The notes beneath the pieces were generated by a model, which saw only the letters and a list, made by a program, of their open reading frames with translations, did no database searches and was not told where the DNA came from. Shown here piece after piece: positions 3,673 through 41,121 of a DNA stretch of 64,000 nucleotides (within the stretch, counting starts at the first letter, position 1; each line of letters begins with the position of its first letter). A program made the translations under genes and the position numbers. The stretch comes from Desulfoplanes formicivorans (GTDB taxonomy: Bacteria > Desulfobacterota > Desulfovibrionia > Desulfovibrionales > Desulfomicrobiaceae), in contig NZ_BDFE01000017.1 of assembly GCF_001748225.1 (NCBI RefSeq), positions 62,001 to 126,000 of the forward strand, written 5' to 3'.

Positions 3673-4677
3673 ATGCAAATTGTTCGCATGATCGTTACCC
3701 TAGCCCTTTACCTCGCGTTGGTGGGCGTGCATCTGGCCGGGGCAGCACAGGAGCCCGCCAGTGTGAATATCGCTCAAGGCAAGGGGCCTTTGAGCGTACT
3801 GCTGGTGGTGGCCGAAGAAAAGGGTTTTTTTGTCAAGCACGGGGTCGAGGTTGCCTTGCATACCTACAACCGCGGCATTTTGGCTATCAGGGACGGCATG
3901 ATCCGGGATCAGTGCGATGGCGCTCTTGGCGGAGCCACTGTGGCCACGCTTGAGGCGTTTTCCCATCCCCATGCCTTCAAAATTGTTACCGAGATGGCTT
4001 TTACCGACAACCAGGATACCATCATCGCCCGAACGGACAGGGGGATCACTTCCCCAGGGGATCTCATCGGAAAGAGGCTTGCCGTCCCACGGGGAGGTAC
4101 GGCCCATTTCTTTCTCACGAGCTATCTGGAAAAATGGAATATTCCGGTCAATATGGTTGATGTGGTTTTCCTGTCCAAAAAGGAAATGGTTAAGGCCATT
4201 GCCCAGGGACGCGTGGACGCCATTTGTCAGCATGAGCCCGTGACTGAGAAGGTGCGCAAGGCCCTGCACAACCAGACCGTTGAATTTGAGGAAAAGGCAT
4301 TGACCCGAAAAATAACGGTCCTGCTTTTTAGAACGCCATTCATCAAGGCCCATCCCCAAAAGGTCAAGGCTGTACTTCGCGGCATTACCGACGCCTGGCA
4401 GTACATGCAAGACCATCTTGACGAATGCGTGGAAATTCTTTCCCGAAGAAAAAACATTTCCAAAGAGAATGCCTGTCATTTCCTCGAGCATACCTTCAAT
4501 TTCAGGGGTCTTGGCCTCTCCCAGTCCCTACTTCTCAAAATAGAGTATGCAACTTTCTGGGCCATTTCTGCGGGCTTGGGGGAGAGGGAAAACGCGCCCG
4601 ACTCCTTGAATTTGATAGATTACTCCTTGTTGGAACAGATGGATCCCGGCCGTGTGACTATCATACGCAAGGAGTGA
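3673..4677 (+). CDS. NMT1/THI5-like periplasmic substrate-binding protein
   Basis: This 334-residue protein starts at ATG 3673 behind TGAGGAGAATAGC and has a Sec signal peptide (about 25 residues, ending near AGAAQ). The body is of the SsuA/ThiY/NMT1 type: it opens with KGPLSVLLVVAEEKGFF, has GGATVATLEA and LIGKRLAVPRGGTA, and DAICQHEP in the second lobe. Family members bind sulfonates, nitrate, pyrimidines or similar ligands in the periplasm. No ABC permease or ATPase accompanies it. The next gene, 43 bases on, is a membrane histidine kinase, so it may present its ligand to the kinase instead of a transporter. The ligand is unknown. Confidence 0.85.
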   Translation: MQIVRMIVTLALYLALVGVHLAGAAQEPASVNIAQGKGPLSVLLVVAEEKGFFVKHGVEVALHTYNRGILAIRDGMIRDQCDGALGGATVATLEAFSHPHAFKIVTEMAFTDNQDTIIARTDRGITSPGDLIGKRLAVPRGGTAHFFLTSYLEKWNIPVNMVDVVFLSKKEMVKAIAQGRVDAICQHEPVTEKVRKALHNQTVEFEEKALTRKITVLLFRTPFIKAHPQKVKAVLRGITDAWQYMQDHLDECVEILSRRKNISKENACHFLEHTFNFRGLGLSQSLLLKIEYATFWAISAGLGERENAPDSLNLIDYSLLEQMDPGRVTIIRKE

Positions 4678-4720
4678 TGGGCATGTCCGTTTTCATGACA
4701 AGAAAAAAATTGGAAAATCG

Positions 4721-6223
4721 ATGAAAATTTCATCAAAAATACTTATGGCGTATGTTTTGCTTCTTTTAGAGCATGCATTAGTCATAGGTATTTTTTTCTT
4801 TACAGTGAATTATATAAACCGGTCTATTGAGCAGAACGCGCGTGTTTATACGATCGTGAAGAATGTTTCCGAGCTCATCCAGTTGGCTGATGAAATCAAT
4901 GAGATCAATCAAAACAGAGTGTTCAATCAATGGGATGTCTTGTTGTCACATGTAAGAGAAAATCTTTATCATATTGACAATAATGATAACAAGACAGAAC
5001 GCATCATCCTTGATATTCTCGTTGATATACAAAGAGCAGATGATATCATCAAATCTTTTTCAAAAAAACACATTAAATCATACGGCAAAACATACACCAA
5101 TAAAAACAACATAAATAATATTAATGTTATTTTAAAAAATGTTTCAACATCGTGCGATATTCTTCTTGATGCGTCGTTGCAAAAAGTAGATCAAGTAGAA
5201 AAATGGTGTGAGTCTACCATAGTACTTGTCGTTGTTTTTTTTGCATGTTCTCTTGTTTGGGCGTTCTGGTTCATTGAAAAAAATATTGTTTTTCCCCTGA
5301 ATTTGTTAGCGGCAAAGACCAAACAGATTGGGCAGGGCGATTTCGACTTAACCATGGATGTCGTTTCCCATGATGAAATCGGTGATTTTACCCGATCGTT
5401 CGTGGAAATGGCCCATCAACTCCGGGTTGTTACTGTTTCCCGTGACGCAATGATTCGTGAAGTACAGGCTAGGAAAGATGTCGAACTCCAGCTTAAAAAA
5501 AAGGAATCTTCCCTCAAGGCGTTATCATCGAAGATGATGACCGTTCTGGAGGAGGAACGCAAGAAGATTGGCCGTGATCTGCATGACAGCGTAGTACAGG
5601 ATCTGGTCGGATTGAAACTGCACCAGGAAAATGCTATCCGCGCGCTGCAACGAAGTCATCCGGGAATGGATTTGGCAAGATTCGAACAGAACCTGGCCTA
5701 TATCAACACGGCCATCATTCAATTGCGTGAGATCATCATGGGGCTGAGACCGGCCATTCTTGACGATCTCGGTCTGATCCCGGCCCTGGAATGGTATTGT
5801 CGCGAATTTTCGAAAACGTACGCTCAATTTCGCTTATCTGTTGACATGGACACGCCGAACGTTCCCATCCCCGAGGATGTCGGCACAGCCGTGTTTCGCA
5901 TTGTTCAGGAAGCGTTGAAAAATATTGTCAAACACAGCGATGCCTCTTGCATCATGGTTACCATCAAGTCGGACGACCATGTTCTCGAGGTACGGGTGGA
6001 AGACGATGGTCAGGGTATGGACCTTGAGCGTGACGAAATCGAACTGTTGAGCATGGGATTTTCGGGAATGCGTGAACGGGCGGAAGCTGTTCACGGTGAA
6101 TTCCGTGTTCATTCCAGTCCGGGGGAGGGTGTTGCCATTTGTGTGCTCTTTCCCCTGGATGATTCTCATACCGGGCAGAGCGGGGGTCCAGACGAATCAG
6201 ACAGATCTCTCCGCCTGACCTGA
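4721..6223 (+). CDS. NarX/DegS-type membrane sensor histidine kinase
   Basis: The 500-residue kinase has TM1 at about 9-30, a periplasmic helical region of about 135 residues, TM2 at about 167-186, a HAMP domain (to ~240), a coiled coil, HisKA_3 with phosphoacceptor His288 in EEERKKIGRDLHDSVVQD, and an HATPase_c domain (FRIVQEALKNIVKHS, VEDDGQGMD). Kinases of this class phosphorylate NarL/LuxR response regulators, fitting the regulator at 2740-3444. The first ~580 bases are clearly AT-rich (runs of AAAAA, TTTTT, AAT codons), whereas the kinase half has the composition of its neighbours. This suggests that the sensor module has a separate origin or is under relaxed selection. Confidence 0.93.
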   Translation: MKISSKILMAYVLLLLEHALVIGIFFFTVNYINRSIEQNARVYTIVKNVSELIQLADEINEINQNRVFNQWDVLLSHVRENLYHIDNNDNKTERIILDILVDIQRADDIIKSFSKKHIKSYGKTYTNKNNINNINVILKNVSTSCDILLDASLQKVDQVEKWCESTIVLVVVFFACSLVWAFWFIEKNIVFPLNLLAAKTKQIGQGDFDLTMDVVSHDEIGDFTRSFVEMAHQLRVVTVSRDAMIREVQARKDVELQLKKKESSLKALSSKMMTVLEEERKKIGRDLHDSVVQDLVGLKLHQENAIRALQRSHPGMDLARFEQNLAYINTAIIQLREIIMGLRPAILDDLGLIPALEWYCREFSKTYAQFRLSVDMDTPNVPIPEDVGTAVFRIVQEALKNIVKHSDASCIMVTIKSDDHVLEVRVEDDGQGMDLERDEIELLSMGFSGMRERAEAVHGEFRVHSSPGEGVAICVLFPLDDSHTGQSGGPDESDRSLRLT

Positions 6224-12157: not shown

Positions 12158-12754
12158 TCAGTCCCAGGGGCCTGTTAGGGGATGCGTCAGGCGGACATAG
12201 TTCTGGAATATCGCGGTGATCTTTTCCATTGCACATGACTCGGTCCGGCTCAGCTCGTCCGTGCCCAGGGTCTGTCCCTGGTACCCGTTGGCAATGACCG
12301 TATGGGCGTGCTGCATCACGGCGCGCAGGTTTTTGATCCTTCCGGCCTGAAGATAGATGCTCATGTCATTGATGACTAGCAGATCAGGCCTTGGAGCTGC
12401 CAGAACGGCCGCAAACCAGGTTTCAATGCGCTTCTGGTTTTTTCGGGCCAGGGTCAGGACATGTTCTTGTGACAGGCCCATGAGCCGGGGCGGAAGGATG
12501 CCGTTTCGAAAGACCAGGTCCGGGATGGCGGACGAAAACGTGACAAACCCGCCAATGCCCTGTGAACCGGTGCGTTTTTGCAGGTTTACGGGAATGGTCG
12601 GGGCCATGTCCACAACAGTGAGCCGGGGCGTGTCCAGGTACGCCCATAGCATATCGGCCCAGCGTCCGGTCAGGGTGGTCTTGCCCGTGTTGACCTCGCC
12701 GGTGATGAGGGTTCGCCTGCCCATGAGCCTGGCCGGGGGCCAGTCCGGGATCAT
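12158..12754 (-). CDS. P-loop NTPase coupled to the riboswitch-controlled Nramp-like transporter
   Basis: A 198-residue cytoplasmic protein with a Walker A loop TGEVNTGKTT near residues 18-27 and a probable Walker B LLVIND near 130. It has no ABC signature, no SIMIBI dimer motif and no GTPase NKxD that I can see, so its class is uncertain. The ATG at 12754 overlaps the stop of the transporter gene as ATGA, so translation is probably coupled and both are controlled by the TPP riboswitch upstream. A 13000 start is open but lies inside the transporter gene in another frame. The function is unknown; energising or regulating transport of a thiamine-related compound or metal is inference. Confidence 0.75.
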   Translation of the reverse strand: MIPDWPPARLMGRRTLITGEVNTGKTTLTGRWADMLWAYLDTPRLTVVDMAPTIPVNLQKRTGSQGIGGFVTFSSAIPDLVFRNGILPPRLMGLSQEHVLTLARKNQKRIETWFAAVLAAPRPDLLVINDMSIYLQAGRIKNLRAVMQHAHTVIANGYQGQTLGTDELSRTESCAMEKITAIFQNYVRLTHPLTGPWD

Positions 12755-13998
12755 GACATGCCCCCGAGTTTGATCAGAATCCACCGGCCGGCCAGAAACA
12801 GGGTCAGCATCAGGCTGATCACCCCGAGCAGATTGACTGTCAAGCCGTTGGTGTGTTTGCCGGCCCAGGACGGGCTGTTCAGCAGGATCAGGTTCATGGC
12901 GATGATCAGCGGAGTGCCGCACAGGCCCATGGCCAGCATGACCACGAGCATGATCAGCCAGCCGCCCGGCAGCAGGGGACCGGCCAGGCTGACCAGACAT
13001 CCGGCCAGAATGGCGAGATGGAACCGCTTGTCTTCCCGGCTGGCCTTCCAGCCAAAGGTGTCGGCCATAAAAAAACCGCCGGCCATGAAGGTTGGCGTGA
13101 TGGTCGAAAGCACGGCCGCCAGCAGCCCTGCCAGAAAGACTGGACCTGCCAGGGGGCCGAGAACCGGGGTCAGGGCGTGAGCCAGATCAAAAACATTGTG
13201 GATGGCCATATGCCGGGGATGGAGCCAGGCCGCTCCGGTGATGAAAATGGCCGTACTGTACAGGCCAAAGGCCACGAACATGCCCAGAAAGGTATCCAGG
13301 GCAGCCAGAGGAAGATTGTTGGTCTGCCAACCCCGCTGGTTCACGGTGTAGGAGTGCATGGCAATGATGGTGATGTGCACGGCTCCGCCCATGATGGCGG
13401 CCATCATCAGGGCGGCCTGATCCTGATTCGGCAGGGAGGGCACAAGTCCGGCAAGCATGGCCATGGGATCCGGTCGGATGGTGATGGCCGTGATCATGAA
13501 GCAGAGAACCACCAGGGCCACAAGAACCTTGCTCACCCTTTCCAGTAATCCGTATCCGCCCCGCACAAGCAGAAAACCCAGCAGACTTGTCCAGAACAGT
13601 CCCCACCAGGGTGTGGACCATCCGGTGACCAGCCCGGTCACTCCCACCAGGGCCTTCATCAGGGCTGCTGCCGCCAGCCAGGTGGCAACCAGGGCGTCGA
13701 TCATGAGAATCATGGCCCAGGTCCTTCCCCAGCGTTCCTCAACAATGCGGATGATCCCCTTGCCGGCAATGATCCCGGTCTTGGCAGCCATGTACTGGTT
13801 GACGCATGCCAGCAATCCGCTCAGGACCACGACCCACAACAGGGAATAGCCAAAGGTTCCTCCGGCCATGGCCACCGAGGCCATGGTTGCTGGTCCGGCT
13901 GCCACCGCGCTGATGACCCAGGCCGGGCCGAACCGGCTGATCAGGCCGGTGGAAGAAGAAACAGCCGCGTGTGCCTGTGATCCGTCCGTTGCGTTCAT
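12751..13998 (-). CDS. Nramp-fold membrane transporter under TPP riboswitch control
   Basis: A 415-residue protein of about 11 helices. GPAWVISAVAAGPATMASV followed by FGYSLLWVVVLSGL aligns with the Nramp (MntH) TM1-TM2 region. Nramp metal transporters carry DPGN in TM1 and MPH in TM6. Here TM1 has AGPATMAS, and the TM6 segment reads GGAVHITIIAMHS, so by my alignment MPH is replaced while the following His-Ser is kept. Mn/Fe transport is therefore doubtful. The leader holds a TPP riboswitch and an intrinsic terminator, so TPP should shut expression off. GGAG lies about 9 bases before the start. Uptake of a thiamine precursor or a metal linked to thiamine metabolism is inference. Confidence 0.8.
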   Translation of the reverse strand: MNATDGSQAHAAVSSSTGLISRFGPAWVISAVAAGPATMASVAMAGGTFGYSLLWVVVLSGLLACVNQYMAAKTGIIAGKGIIRIVEERWGRTWAMILMIDALVATWLAAAALMKALVGVTGLVTGWSTPWWGLFWTSLLGFLLVRGGYGLLERVSKVLVALVVLCFMITAITIRPDPMAMLAGLVPSLPNQDQAALMMAAIMGGAVHITIIAMHSYTVNQRGWQTNNLPLAALDTFLGMFVAFGLYSTAIFITGAAWLHPRHMAIHNVFDLAHALTPVLGPLAGPVFLAGLLAAVLSTITPTFMAGGFFMADTFGWKASREDKRFHLAILAGCLVSLAGPLLPGGWLIMLVVMLAMGLCGTPLIIAMNLILLNSPSWAGKHTNGLTVNLLGVISLMLTLFLAGRWILIKLGGMS

Positions 13999-14059
13999 TG
14001 GTCATGCTCCGTGGTCATTGATCCCGGGGTGGCGCACGGCAGCCCAGCGTGCAGCCATG

Positions 14060-14093
14060 AAAAAAGCCGCCGTTTCACAAGGAAAGGGCAGCC
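14060..14093 (-). terminator. Leader terminator downstream of TPP riboswitch
   Basis: On the minus strand GGCTGCC pairs with GGCGGC (one wobble) across a loop of about 15 bases, followed directly by TTTTTT. It sits between the riboswitch and the Nramp-like gene, where a riboswitch-controlled attenuator is expected. Confidence 0.7.
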
Positions 14094-14152
14094 ACAGGGG
14101 AGGATACAGCAACGTTGTGCCGTCACGTGTGGGCACGGTGCCGCTATGATCT

Positions 14153-14236
14153 GCGCTTCCCTCCGCCGGCATTACCCGGATCAGGTTCAAAGGGTCGTCC
14201 GAAAACGGACTCTCAGTTACCAACTCCCCTAGCGAA
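14153..14236 (-). promoter_or_regulatory. TPP (THI-box) riboswitch upstream of Nramp-like gene
   Basis: The minus strand carries the conserved THI-box elements in order: TAGGGGAG, CTGAGA, ACCCTTTGAACCTGATC, GGGTAATGCCGGCG and AGGGA. The P1 stem closes with CGCT/AGCG. Binding of thiamine pyrophosphate should favour the terminator at 14060-14093 and reduce transcription of the transporter and NTPase genes. Confidence 0.96.
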
Positions 14237-16254: not shown

Positions 16255-16875
16255 ATGAGTTGTTGTACCCTTACATGTCAGGGATTGCCCTGTCCGCAGC
16301 CTGTTTTGCAATGCAAGCAGGCCATTGAAAAGGAACCCGGGGTGGAACTGGTCGTGTATGTTGACAATGATGCGGCCAAGGAAAATGTGACGCGGTTTGT
16401 GGGCACCAAAGGATATGAAGTCGTGTCCGCGGAAAAGGACGGAGCTGTCTGGAAGATTATGGCCCGCCCGGGTGCTGGCATGACCACGGGTGTTGCAACC
16501 GGCAGCCAGCATGTGGCCAAGGAGAAGACAGAGCAGGGGAACAGGACCCTGGTGTTTATTTCTTCCTCCTGCATGGGTTCGGGAGACGATGAGCTCGGCC
16601 ACAAGCTCATGGGAAATTTCATCAGCGTTCTGCCCGAACTGGGTGATGATCTCTGGCGGATCATCCTTGTTAATGCCGGGGTGAAGCTGGCGGTTGAGGG
16701 GAGCCCGGTTCTTGCCAACCTCCAGGCATTGGAGGCACAGGGGGTTTCCATCCTGGTTTGCGGTACCTGTTTGGATTTTTTCGATCTTTTGCAACAAAAA
16801 AAGGTCGGAGAGACAACCAACATGCTTGATGTGGTCACCAGCATGCAGCTGGCCGACAAGGTGCTGAGCATCTGA
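16255..16875 (+). CDS. yedF: YedF-like selenium metabolism protein (SirA/TusA-like plus DsrE-like domains)
   Basis: A 206-residue protein with an N-terminal SirA/TusA domain (CQGLPCPQPVLQCKQAIEK, with the C-P-x-P motif) and a C-terminal DsrE-like domain (TLVFISSSCMGSGDDELGHKLM, then VSILVCGTCLDFF). This two-domain layout is the selenium-metabolism YedF family, known to co-occur with selD and proposed to carry a selenium or sulfur species on cysteine. AAGGAG lies 8 bases before the ATG. selD follows 69 bases later, so the two are probably one operon. Confidence 0.92.
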   Translation: MSCCTLTCQGLPCPQPVLQCKQAIEKEPGVELVVYVDNDAAKENVTRFVGTKGYEVVSAEKDGAVWKIMARPGAGMTTGVATGSQHVAKEKTEQGNRTLVFISSSCMGSGDDELGHKLMGNFISVLPELGDDLWRIILVNAGVKLAVEGSPVLANLQALEAQGVSILVCGTCLDFFDLLQQKKVGETTNMLDVVTSMQLADKVLSI

Positions 16876-16944
16876 TCTCGTATCCTGCGTGGCTCAAGCC
16901 GTTGGGCGTGCATGCGTGCAGGGCATCAACCAAGGAAGGATTCA

Positions 16945-17994
16945 ATGGAAAAGATAGAACTGGTCAAATCAGTGAAGGCGGCCGGCTGAGCGGCCAAGAT
17001 TTCTCCAGGGGACCTGGAGGATGTTTTGGCTGATTGCCTGCACCAGGAGGATGACCGACTGCTGACCGGCCTTTCGGACAACGAGGATTCGGCCATTCTC
17101 AGGTTTCCTGCGGGCAAGGCCCTGGTGCAGACCGTGGATTTTTTTACGCCCATTGTGAACGATCCCTACCGGTTCGGCCAGATCGCTGCGGCCAATGCCC
17201 TGTCCGATGTCTATGCCATGGGCGGGGTTCCCTATGCGGCCATGAACATTGTCTGCTTTCCCATCAAGAAATATCCCAAGGAAATGCTCCGTGAAATCCT
17301 GCATGGCGGCATGGACAAAATCCGGGAAGCCGGGGCGGTTCTAGCAGGCGGGCACAGTGTTGAGGACGAGGAAACCAAATACGGGCTGGCCGTGTCCGGG
17401 ATTGTTGATCCGGACCGGTTCGCGTCCAACAAGGGACTGCGCGTTGGCGATCAGCTTGTTTTGACCAAACCCATCGGGACCGGAGTGCTGGCAACGGGCA
17501 TCAAGGCCGGATGGGACGGGGCCGATGGGTTTGAGGATCTTCTGTATACATGGGCGGGCATGCTCAACAAAGCAGGGGGCGAGGTCATCCGGGAATTGGG
17601 CCTCATCGGGGCAACCGACGTGACCGGGTTCGGGCTGGGAGGCCATCTGCTGGAAATGGCCAGGGCCTCCCGTGTGCGGGTTTCCCTTTCCCTGGCAGCC
17701 ATCCCGTTCATTCCCGAGGCCGTGGAACTGGCCGGCATGGGCATGATCCCGGCGGGCAGCTTTGCCAACAGAAATTTTTGTTCATCCCTGGTGCAGGTCG
17801 CTTCGGGATGCGATCCCCTGCTGGTGGACCTCGTGTTTGACGCCCAGACCTCAGGAGGGCTTATTTTGAGCGTGCCCGAGGCCAAGGTGGATGCTGCCGT
17901 GAACATGCTGGAGGCTGGTGGCGCGCTGGCTGCACGCATCGGGCGGGTCACCTCGCCTGCTGAACACGGATGCAGGCTGGACATCACGCCCTGA
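16945..17994 (+). CDS. selD: Selenide, water dikinase SelD, itself a selenoprotein (Sec15)
   Basis: SelD makes selenophosphate from selenide and ATP, the selenium donor for tRNA-Sec. From ATG 16945 (AAGGAAGGATTCA upstream) the frame meets TGA at 16987-16989, then continues without a stop to 17994. The TGA lies in A-G-U-A-A-K-I-S-P, at the place of the catalytic Cys17 of E. coli SelD, with the conserved Lys three residues on. A hairpin follows the TGA. Later motifs are NEDSAILRF, QIAAANALSDVYAMGG, AGGHSVEDEE and GATDVTGFGLGGHLLEM. A conventional annotation would wrongly start downstream of the TGA. The product is 349 residues, the normal family length. Confidence 0.95.
16987..17022 (+). promoter_or_regulatory. 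Probable SECIS element in selD
   Basis: Sixteen bases from the start of the TGA is CTCCAGG-GGA-CCTGGAG, a perfect 7-bp stem. Its distance fits a bacterial SECIS. The loop lacks the usual U, so it may open to a larger loop in vivo. Confidence 0.65.
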
Positions 17995-26367: not shown

Positions 26368-27027
26368 TCATAACCTTGTTTGATACGACCTTCTTCCTTG
26401 CTCCACTGCCGTGCGCAGATCCTTCACTGCTCTGGCGGGTGAAGGAGCTGAACAAATGGCCGAAACAACAGCGATTCCATGAGCTCCTGCCCCAATGACC
26501 TGACCGGCATTGTCCTTGGTAATGCCGCCGATGCCCACCAGGGTGTGCACGGATGCTGCGCGGGCCCTGGTGATGCCGGCAATGCCCCATTCCCCGGAGG
26601 TATCCGTCTTGGTGGTTGTGGGGAAAACCGGGCCGATGCCCAGATAATCGAGATCCAGTTGATTGGCCTGGAGCAATTGTTCCCACGTATCAATGGAAAG
26701 ACCGACGATTTTGTCCGGGCCGAGAATCTTTCGGGCGTCGGCAAAGGGCATGTCGCTTTGCCCGATATGCACCCCGTCAGCTCCCACAGCCAGGGCCACA
26801 TCGATCCGATCGTTGATCAGCAAGGGAATCGAGGCCTTGCTGGTAATGGCCCGTACCGACCTGCCCAGTTCCACAAATGCCCGCGTTGAGGCCTGTTTTT
26901 CCCGGAGCTGCACCAGACCGACACCCGCATGCACGGCCTGTCTGACAATATCCAGAAGATCCCGCCCAAGGCACAGGGGGCGATCCGTGACCAGATACAC
27001 GCGGTAGTCCACATGGGCCGGTTTCAT
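26368..27027 (-). CDS. thiE: Thiamine phosphate synthase
   Basis: ThiE joins HMP pyrophosphate and thiazole phosphate to give thiamine monophosphate. The 219-residue TIM-barrel protein shows YLVTDRPLC, VGLVQLREKQ, LLINDRIDVALAVGADGVHIGQSDMP, IGLSIDTWEQ-like VGLSIDTWEQLLQA, YLGIGPVFPTTTKTD and LVGIGGITKDN, all family landmarks. The start codon overlaps the stop of the UspA-like gene (ATGA). No TPP riboswitch is seen ahead of this gene, unlike thiC and the Nramp unit. Confidence 0.96.
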   Translation of the reverse strand: MKPAHVDYRVYLVTDRPLCLGRDLLDIVRQAVHAGVGLVQLREKQASTRAFVELGRSVRAITSKASIPLLINDRIDVALAVGADGVHIGQSDMPFADARKILGPDKIVGLSIDTWEQLLQANQLDLDYLGIGPVFPTTTKTDTSGEWGIAGITRARAASVHTLVGIGGITKDNAGQVIGAGAHGIAVVSAICSAPSPARAVKDLRTAVEQGRRSYQTRL

Positions 27028-39071: not shown

Positions 39072-40376
39072 TCAATCGTCAAGCTGGATATCCTTGCCTG
39101 CCAGAATCCGGTTCATGTTCCTGACCGCACACATCTTGCCGCACATGGAACAGGAATCCTGGTGTTCGGGCATGGAGGATTTTCTGTATTCCCGGGCACG
39201 TTTGTCATCCATGGCCAGCTGGAACATGGTCTCCCAGTCCAGGTCGGCCCGGGCCTTGGCCATGGCATCGTCCCAGGCGCGTGCTCCGGGAATGCCCCGG
39301 CCAATGTCTGCGGCATGGGCGGCAATGCGCGTGGCCATGATCCCTTCCTTCAGGTCGTCCAGGCTGGGCAATCTCAAATGTTCGGCAGGGGTGACATAGC
39401 ACAGGAAATCGGCTCCGTGCTGGGCGGCAATGGCGCCGCCAATGGCCGCTGTAATGTGGTCGTACCCCGGGGCCACATCCGTGACCAGGGGGCCGAGAAC
39501 ATAAAAGGGCGCGCCAAAGCAGAGCCGTTTTTCCAGCATCATGTTCCCCGGGATTTCGTTCATGGCCATATGCCCCGGTCCTTCGATCATCACCTGGACA
39601 TTGCGTTCCCAGGCCCGTTTGGTCAGCTCACCAAGGGAGATCAGCTCCTGGACCTGGGAGGCGTCGGTGGCATCGTGCAGACACCCGGGACGGCATCCGT
39701 CTCCCAGACTCAAGGTGACATCATGCTGTTCACACAGATCCAGCAAACGATCATAGTGCTGGAAAAAGGGGTTTTCTGCGTCATTGAGTTCCATCCAGGA
39801 AAAAAGCAGGGCACCGCCGCGGGAGACGATGTTGGTGATCCGTTGCTGCTTTTTGATCTTTTCGGCCGTGGCCCTGTTCAGCCCGGCATGAATGGTCAAG
39901 AAATCCACCCCATCCACCACATGCTGCTCAACAACCCTGAACCAGTCATCCACTGTAATGTCCCGCAGATTCTTGTCGCAAAAGCCCACGGCATCGTAAA
40001 CAGGCACGGTGCCGATCATCACCGGGGACATGTCCACCAGCCGTTTGCGAAATGGTGCGGTCTTGCCGTAGCAGCTCAGGTCCATGATCGCCTCGATGTG
40101 CATGCTCAAGGCGGTCCTGACCTTGTCAAGCTCGGCCTCCATATCCTGACAATCCTTGGAAATGCCCAGATTGACATTGACCTTGATCCGCAACCCCTCG
40201 CCGACTCCCTCGCCCTGCAGGCTGGCGTGGTTCTTGTTGGCCGGGATAATGACGGAACCTCTGGCCATGCGATCCATGAGATCTTCCATGGGCACCTTTT
40301 CCTTGGCGGCTACGGTCTGCATCTGGGGGGTGACAATGCCCTTGCGGGCGGCGTCCATTTGGGTGGTGAAGCTCAT
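39072..40376 (-). CDS. thiC: Phosphomethylpyrimidine synthase ThiC
   Basis: ThiC converts aminoimidazole ribotide to HMP phosphate in a radical SAM reaction for thiamine. The 434-residue product is the shorter bacterial form. It shows [63 protein letters not shown] and the C-terminal cluster motif CSMCGKMC. I chose ATG 40376 because CAGGAGTTTCCA precedes it; the longer frame runs into the riboswitch leader. Expression is expected to fall when TPP is abundant, by the riboswitch and terminator directly upstream. Confidence 0.96.
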
Positions 40377-40585
40377 TGGAAACTCCTGAAAAGTGAGAGG
40401 ATGGGTTGTTGCACGGGTGCCGGGGATGAACGGACATGTGCCCGGTTGGGTGGTGTGCAGCACAAACGGGGGATATGGCTCAGGAGAAACGGGAAAGGAG
40501 GTGCCACCAACGACCCGCAGGAAGCAGGGCGGCCACAACTGTCGTGCAAGACAGGGCAGGGGGGCGATTTTTTCGGAACCTTCCG

Positions 40586-40613: not shown

Positions 40614-40642
40614 CGGTTCATGGCATGCAAATGTCTTCAACC

Positions 40643-40721
40643 GGCTTTCCTACGGCAGCATTACCTGCATCAGGTCCAAGGGTCGGGCCTTGCCCTTCTC
40701 AGCCTTGCGGCTCCCCTAGCC
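40643..40721 (-). promoter_or_regulatory. TPP (THI-box) riboswitch upstream of thiC
   Basis: The minus strand has all THI-box elements: CTAGGGGAGCC, GGCTGAGA, ACCCTTGGACCTGAT, AGGTAATGCTGCCG and AGGAA. P1 closes as GGCT/AGCC. Confidence 0.97.
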
Positions 40722-41121
40722 AAAGCAAAAACATGCCATGACGCCACGCTGTTGTAAAGATGGTTCCGGATACGCAAATCAGGCGCAATTCCTGAAATTC
40801 ACAGGAAAAACAAGCGCGTGCACCCGTGGCCATGAACATGGTCCCGGGAAAAATATACTGGACATTCCTTCCGGATGAGCGCAAAAAGTCCGATTTATGA
40901 CCTTGTTGTAATCAGCAAGGCGGGTAAGCGATTCGTTTTCTGGTTTGTCTCTCACTCTGGATTGCTTGTTTCACACTGGTGTCCCTTGCCTGTCCCTGCT
41001 CGGCGCACGGGAAATGCGATACAGGTACTGACATTTTTTGTGTCAGGCAAAGAAATGGAACAGTCCTGTTGCTGCTACAACCGAAGTGAAAGTCGTCCAG
41101 GCCAACAACAGGTGTGACTGC

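Follow-up and report, generated by a model that had tools for sequence, protein, structure and literature searches.

The window (the whole stretch of 64,000 nucleotides from Desulfoplanes formicivorans that was analysed) carries on its minus strand a TPP riboswitch followed by the genes for an NRAMP-like membrane protein and a P-loop NTPase. The riboswitch aptamer (THI element, RF00059; 14141..14240, minus strand) was matched by cmscan over the complete model (105/105 positions, E 1e-12) at 74.0 bits, where the gathering score is 54.3, in agreement with the sequence-only reading, which had placed a complete THI-box riboswitch upstream of the NRAMP-like gene. Between the aptamer and the NRAMP-like start codon lies a candidate intrinsic terminator (14060..14093, minus strand), consisting of a stem-loop of -13.8 kcal/mol followed by U6; 10 of 500 shuffles of the stem-loop were equally or more stable. 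In the ligand-free minimum-energy fold the 5' arm of this hairpin is base-paired to aptamer sequence, which fits attenuation. A simple terminator scanner made no call for the hairpin and its U6, and folding of the whole leader showed no excess stability over shuffles (z -0.11). With these two negative results, the hairpin is to be regarded as no more than a plausible intrinsic terminator of the leader, which the earlier reading had taken as given. A ribosome-binding-site-like GGAG, read from the sequence (14007..14010, minus strand), is located 8 nt 5' of the NRAMP-like start codon.

The NRAMP-like protein of 415 aa, a proposed thiazole importer, is encoded at 12751..13998 (minus strand), and the NTPase of 198 aa, a proposed non-orthologous hydroxyethylthiazole kinase, at 12158..12754 (minus strand; ATG at 12754, stop at 12158). 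The stop codon of the first gene and the start codon of the second share an ATGA, a 4-nt overlap that confirms the gene overlap described previously. An EamA/DMT permease gene (PF00892; 11213-12076, minus strand) lies about 80 bp downstream of the NTPase gene in the same orientation; the gap contains no more than a weak terminator-like site, and the permease gene could be a third member of the riboswitch unit. Directly upstream of the riboswitch, also on the same strand, is a macro-domain gene (PF01661; 14430-14999, minus strand), and at 16255-17994 (plus strand) by-eye reading of the translation found a TusA/YedF-like gene and then a selenophosphate-synthetase-like gene.

Genome-wide there are two TPP riboswitches, the one described above (14240-14141, minus strand) and a second found by RF00059 search (40630..40727, read 40727-40630 on the minus strand), which belongs to the same regulon and lies ahead of thiC. 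The latter gene, of the de novo HMP branch, occupies 39072..40499 (minus strand, start not fixed; Pfam ThiC_Rad_SAM, E 4e-191), and thiE, for thiamine-phosphate synthase, lies at 26368..27027 (minus strand). ThiE requires thiazole phosphate. While ThiC and ThiE are present, single searches of this 100% complete genome gave no match for ThiG, Thi4, ThiM or TenA, so that the organism appears, judged from its gene content, to be incapable of making thiazole. A thiazole-auxotroph pathway variant, Az, has been described as comprising ThiC, ThiD, ThiE, ThiM and ThiL (PMC6593275); compared for ThiC, ThiE and ThiM, the window's genome shares the first two and lacks the third. A thiazole importer together with a replacement kinase would complete such an Az-like pathway.

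The transporter and NTPase proteins

The NRAMP-like protein matches Pfam Nramp (PF01566) with an E value of 1.7e-70, and its predicted structure matches NRAMPs with a TM score of about 0.8 and approximately 25% identity to DraNramp entries (Foldseek E 1e-16), in line with the Nramp fold proposed from the sequence. Nramp was its only match, and there is no homology to ThiW (PF09512/TIGR02359). In alignment with DraNramp, the TM1 motif DPGN is replaced by GPAT (D56 = G35, N59 = T38) and the TM6 motif MPH by HIT (M230 = H208, H232 = T210). With G35, T38 and H208, the protein thus lacks the SLC11/NRAMP metal site DxxN-AxxM. The family alignments show no variation at G35 or H208, the TM1 Asp being Gly in every aligned member. 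As these metal ligands are lost and the TM1 Asp is described as universal in SLC11 (PMC8806188), it is unlikely on sequence grounds that the protein binds metals in the known way. The possibility that it imports a divalent metal (Mn, Mg or Fe) for thiamine enzymes, with the NTPase as its regulator, is nevertheless raised by its NRAMP sequence and fold and by its relative YcsG, reported to be a Mn importer in Bacillus subtilis (PMC10448178). The Gly found in all aligned members in place of a universal Asp and the change of the TM6 Met to an invariant His speak against this, and a transporter that can be exchanged for ThiW or an MFS protein beside the same NTPase (see below) is ill-suited to metal. 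Metal supply to thiamine enzymes, one of the functions offered by the sequence-only reading, is hence disfavoured and very unlikely.

The NTPase has the Walker A motif GEVNTGKT but was matched by no Pfam or NCBIfam family. None of 29 members matched ABC_tran (PF00005), the family expected of an ECF/ABC transporter ATPase, and no Pfam match was found to HK (PF02110), the ribokinase-like family of ThiM; a PDB profile search returned P-loop noise only. The predicted model (pLDDT 90.5) is a single-domain, RecA-type P-loop protein, for which the best structural matches were CobA, Rho, CobU, RadA, FlaH and type II thymidine kinase, with similar Z scores. CobU and thymidine kinase are examples of the RecA-type fold phosphorylating small molecules, but KaiC and F1 ATPases, like Rho and RadA, match about as well, and the predicted fold alone does not prove a kinase over an ATPase. 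Across 77 members from two domains of life, the invariant or nearly invariant residues are G-x4-GK[TS], an acidic residue at 49, P52, G68, P89-R90, N106, N129-D130, N156 and E172. The conservation of R90, N106, N129, D130, N156 and E172 suggests that these residues may form the substrate pocket.

Relatives and genomic neighbourhoods

A first genome scan with the NRAMP-like sequence alone as query gave no relatives. Searches of the 198 further genomes drawn from the class gave no NTPase, and those of the further family genomes no NRAMP-like protein. The first impression from these missing relatives, of an orphan gene pair, was overturned by profile search. The absence from other genomes of the class and family suggests that the pair was acquired by transfer or is a retained relic. 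A genome scan for relatives of the NRAMP-like protein gave 511, the best 80 of which were, with one exception, archaeal, haloarchaea among them; the closest was that of a Deltaproteobacteria MAG. In this MAG, genes for ThiD-ThiN, TenA, an ABC system with a THI5-like binding protein, the NRAMP-like protein and the NTPase form a co-directional run behind a TPP riboswitch. On haloarchaeal plasmids, searched by tblastn, NRAMP-like and NTPase genes also adjoin, and the neighbours of the pair include genes for tenA, TenA-like proteins, thiD and thiamine-phosphate synthase. Variants of the arrangement occur: in a Halarchaeum locus (L012) a DMT permease gene precedes the NRAMP gene, and on a Haloferax larsenii plasmid (L013, 5093-7290) the NRAMP-like gene stands right behind a TenA-family gene without an NTPase, as in other Haloferax, in which ThiM is present.

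Strong NTPase profile matches were obtained in 36 of 395 Desulfobacterota genomes. Together with the Deltaproteobacteria MAG this gave 37 loci to read, one of them cut by a contig end, and each of the 36 whose upstream side is available has a transporter gene immediately ahead of the NTPase. These partners are of three unrelated types, namely NRAMP-like (17 loci), ThiW (15) and MFS (4). ThiD-ThiN is frequently found downstream of the NTPase, and several of these operons include CytX, a predicted HMP transporter. Eight of the ThiW loci have an ECF ATPase and T component, the latter sitting between ThiW and the NTPase, and seven have neither. LarE, a sulfur transferase, is in view in six of these seven, and LarE, ThiW and the NTPase stand in a row at L133, L144, L148, L154, L156 and L160, L153 being cut by the contig end; at L148 a cysteine-synthase-like gene lies ahead of the three. 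A further locus, L142, has a ThiS-ThiF fusion gene (4616-5512) as the first gene of an operon that is under a TPP riboswitch and also includes ThiW, ECF parts, the NTPase and ThiD-ThiN. The genome concerned (G227) gave no true ThiG or Thi4 match, leaving the ThiS-ThiF sulfur carrier without a known thiazole synthase partner.

A same-strand TPP riboswitch lies upstream at 15 of the 37 NTPase loci (three of them below the Rfam cut-off), where chance would be expected to give about 0.04 such loci among 35, given genomes of about 4 Mb with some 1.5 riboswitches each. For the bacterial NRAMP-NTPase pairs, a riboswitch is found upstream in 9/17 and none nearby in 7/17, with one pair cut by a contig end. 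The concern that such pairs might occur mostly without THI-box leaders is thus not borne out among bacteria; the haloarchaeal loci have no TPP riboswitch upstream of the pair, but are linked to tenA. ThiW is a predicted HET (thiazole) transporter (PMC6593275). Since the small ATP-binding protein is constant while the transporters beside it vary, one being a predicted thiazole transporter, the arrangement points to an enzyme that traps the imported compound.

Distribution of the NTPase and ThiM, and a proposed role in thiazole salvage

A role of the NTPase as thiazole kinase predicts that it replaces ThiM. Fifty haloarchaeal genomes with the NRAMP gene were divided into NTPase-positive and NTPase-negative groups from the neighbourhood table before ThiM was searched for, absence of the NTPase being judged from the neighbourhood of the NRAMP gene only. 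ThiM was present in 25/25 genomes without an adjacent NTPase and in 3/25 with one (Fisher p 5e-11). The pattern is clustered on the haloarchaeal tree and reduces to five independent contrasts, of which about 4.8 agree and none oppose, and the lowest value that a sign test can reach with five contrasts is 0.0625, never 0.05. One NTPase-free Haloferax has a thiE-thiM-thiD-like cluster some 8 kb from, and not adjacent to, its NRAMP gene. A published survey found thiM in all Natrinema and in only two Haloarcula (PMC12029414), which agrees with the reciprocity of NTPase and ThiM. The signal in Desulfobacterota has the same direction and is weaker: 75 genomes lack both ThiG and Thi4, and ThiM was found in 2/13 of these with the NTPase and 35/62 without it (p 0.012, kinship ignored). 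Both proteins occur together in three haloarchaea and four Desulfobacterota, one of these ThiM being a fragment. ThiG is missing from 34/36 NTPase-positive Desulfobacterota, and Thi4, which could make thiazole, is present in 22/36, so that salvage would be optional in those organisms.

The reading preferred here, to which a probability of about 0.65 is assigned, is that the pair constitutes a TPP-repressed thiazole salvage module in which the NRAMP-like protein imports thiazole and the NTPase serves as a non-orthologous thiazole kinase. At low TPP the leader would be read through, and the NRAMP-like protein would bring in thiazole, as hydroxyethylthiazole or a closely related compound, for phosphorylation with ATP by the co-translated NTPase; ThiE could then couple the resulting thiazole phosphate to HMP-PP from the ThiC route. 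We infer from comparative evidence what the transporter carries, which reaction the kinase catalyses and that the riboswitch works as an OFF switch. Uptake of thiamine, HMP or thiazole had been proposed from the sequence; precursor uptake is supported, and the evidence narrows the choice to thiazole.

In an alternative scheme the pair would take up thiamine itself, or thiamine that has been phosphorylated or degraded by base, and the NTPase would be a thiamine kinase or an energiser. In its favour, thiamine transporters too are under TPP riboswitches, TenA, which handles degraded thiamine, is a frequent neighbour, and thiamine could sustain a thiazole auxotroph. The reciprocity, however, is with ThiM, a thiazole kinase, the alternative partner ThiW is assigned to thiazole, and the same operons already contain CytX and THI5-like ABC systems for the HMP and degraded-pyrimidine routes, making thiamine import unlikely. 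The NTPase might otherwise serve to energise or regulate the transporter as an ATPase, with no role as a metabolic kinase, as its strict adjacency, the overlapping genes and the RecA-like ATPase fold could imply. Against this, the NTPase is found with transporters of three unrelated folds, some of them ECF systems equipped with ATPases of their own, and its presence follows the absence of ThiM; this role is considered quite unlikely, and a salvage kinase in place of ThiM describes the NTPase better than a part of the transporter. A further proposal, quite improbable as well, is that the NTPase is, beyond a salvage kinase, a docking kinase at the cytoplasmic mouth of NRAMP-like, ThiW and MFS proteins alike, where vectorial phosphorylation (group translocation) would drive thiazole uptake.

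Vitamin B1 metabolism has two gaps, the missing thiazole transporters and thiazole salvage without ThiM, and thiazole salvage by this pair would provide candidates for both. In one gut survey ThiW accounts for no more than 64% of the thiazole auxotrophs (PMC6593275). If the proposal is correct, an organic heterocycle joins the substrates of the NRAMP family, members of which carry the label of divalent metal transporter in haloarchaeal genome annotations, and bacteria and archaea have a new family of P-loop kinases in common. A literature search found no NRAMP-type transporter for thiamine precursors; Rodionov 2002 (J Biol Chem) and 2017 (archaeal ThiR) were outside its scope, and either gene may already be named there.

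Comparison with known systems

The closest functional counterpart of the proposed module is ThiW with ThiM (ECF S component TIGR02359 and kinase PF02110), which would have the same job of thiazole import and phosphorylation and is often controlled by TPP riboswitches. The two systems differ in that there is no homology between them, the window pair having an NRAMP-fold transporter and a P-loop kinase of no named family. CobA/BtuR, CobU and type II thymidine kinase rank among the top structural hits to the NTPase model, with Z 11-13 across 115-151 residues, but share only 10-16% identity with it and differ from it in proposed substrate, and similar scores against the model are reached by Rho, Rad51 and F1 ATPases. 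MntH/NRAMP (SLC11) proteins such as DraNramp belong to the same family as the NRAMP-like protein by sequence and predicted fold, and are distinguished from it by their metal site, DxxN-AxxM as opposed to GxxT-GxxH, and by the first TM6 His, which is Thr in the NRAMP-like protein. That an NRAMP-family protein can serve an organic substrate has a precedent in PxpT of Corynebacterium, which is needed for uptake and use of 5-oxoproline (PMC13274462) and to which YcsG is related. PxpT and YcsG differ from the NRAMP-like protein in operon, substrate and sequence group, YcsG having 14% identity to it in the structure match.
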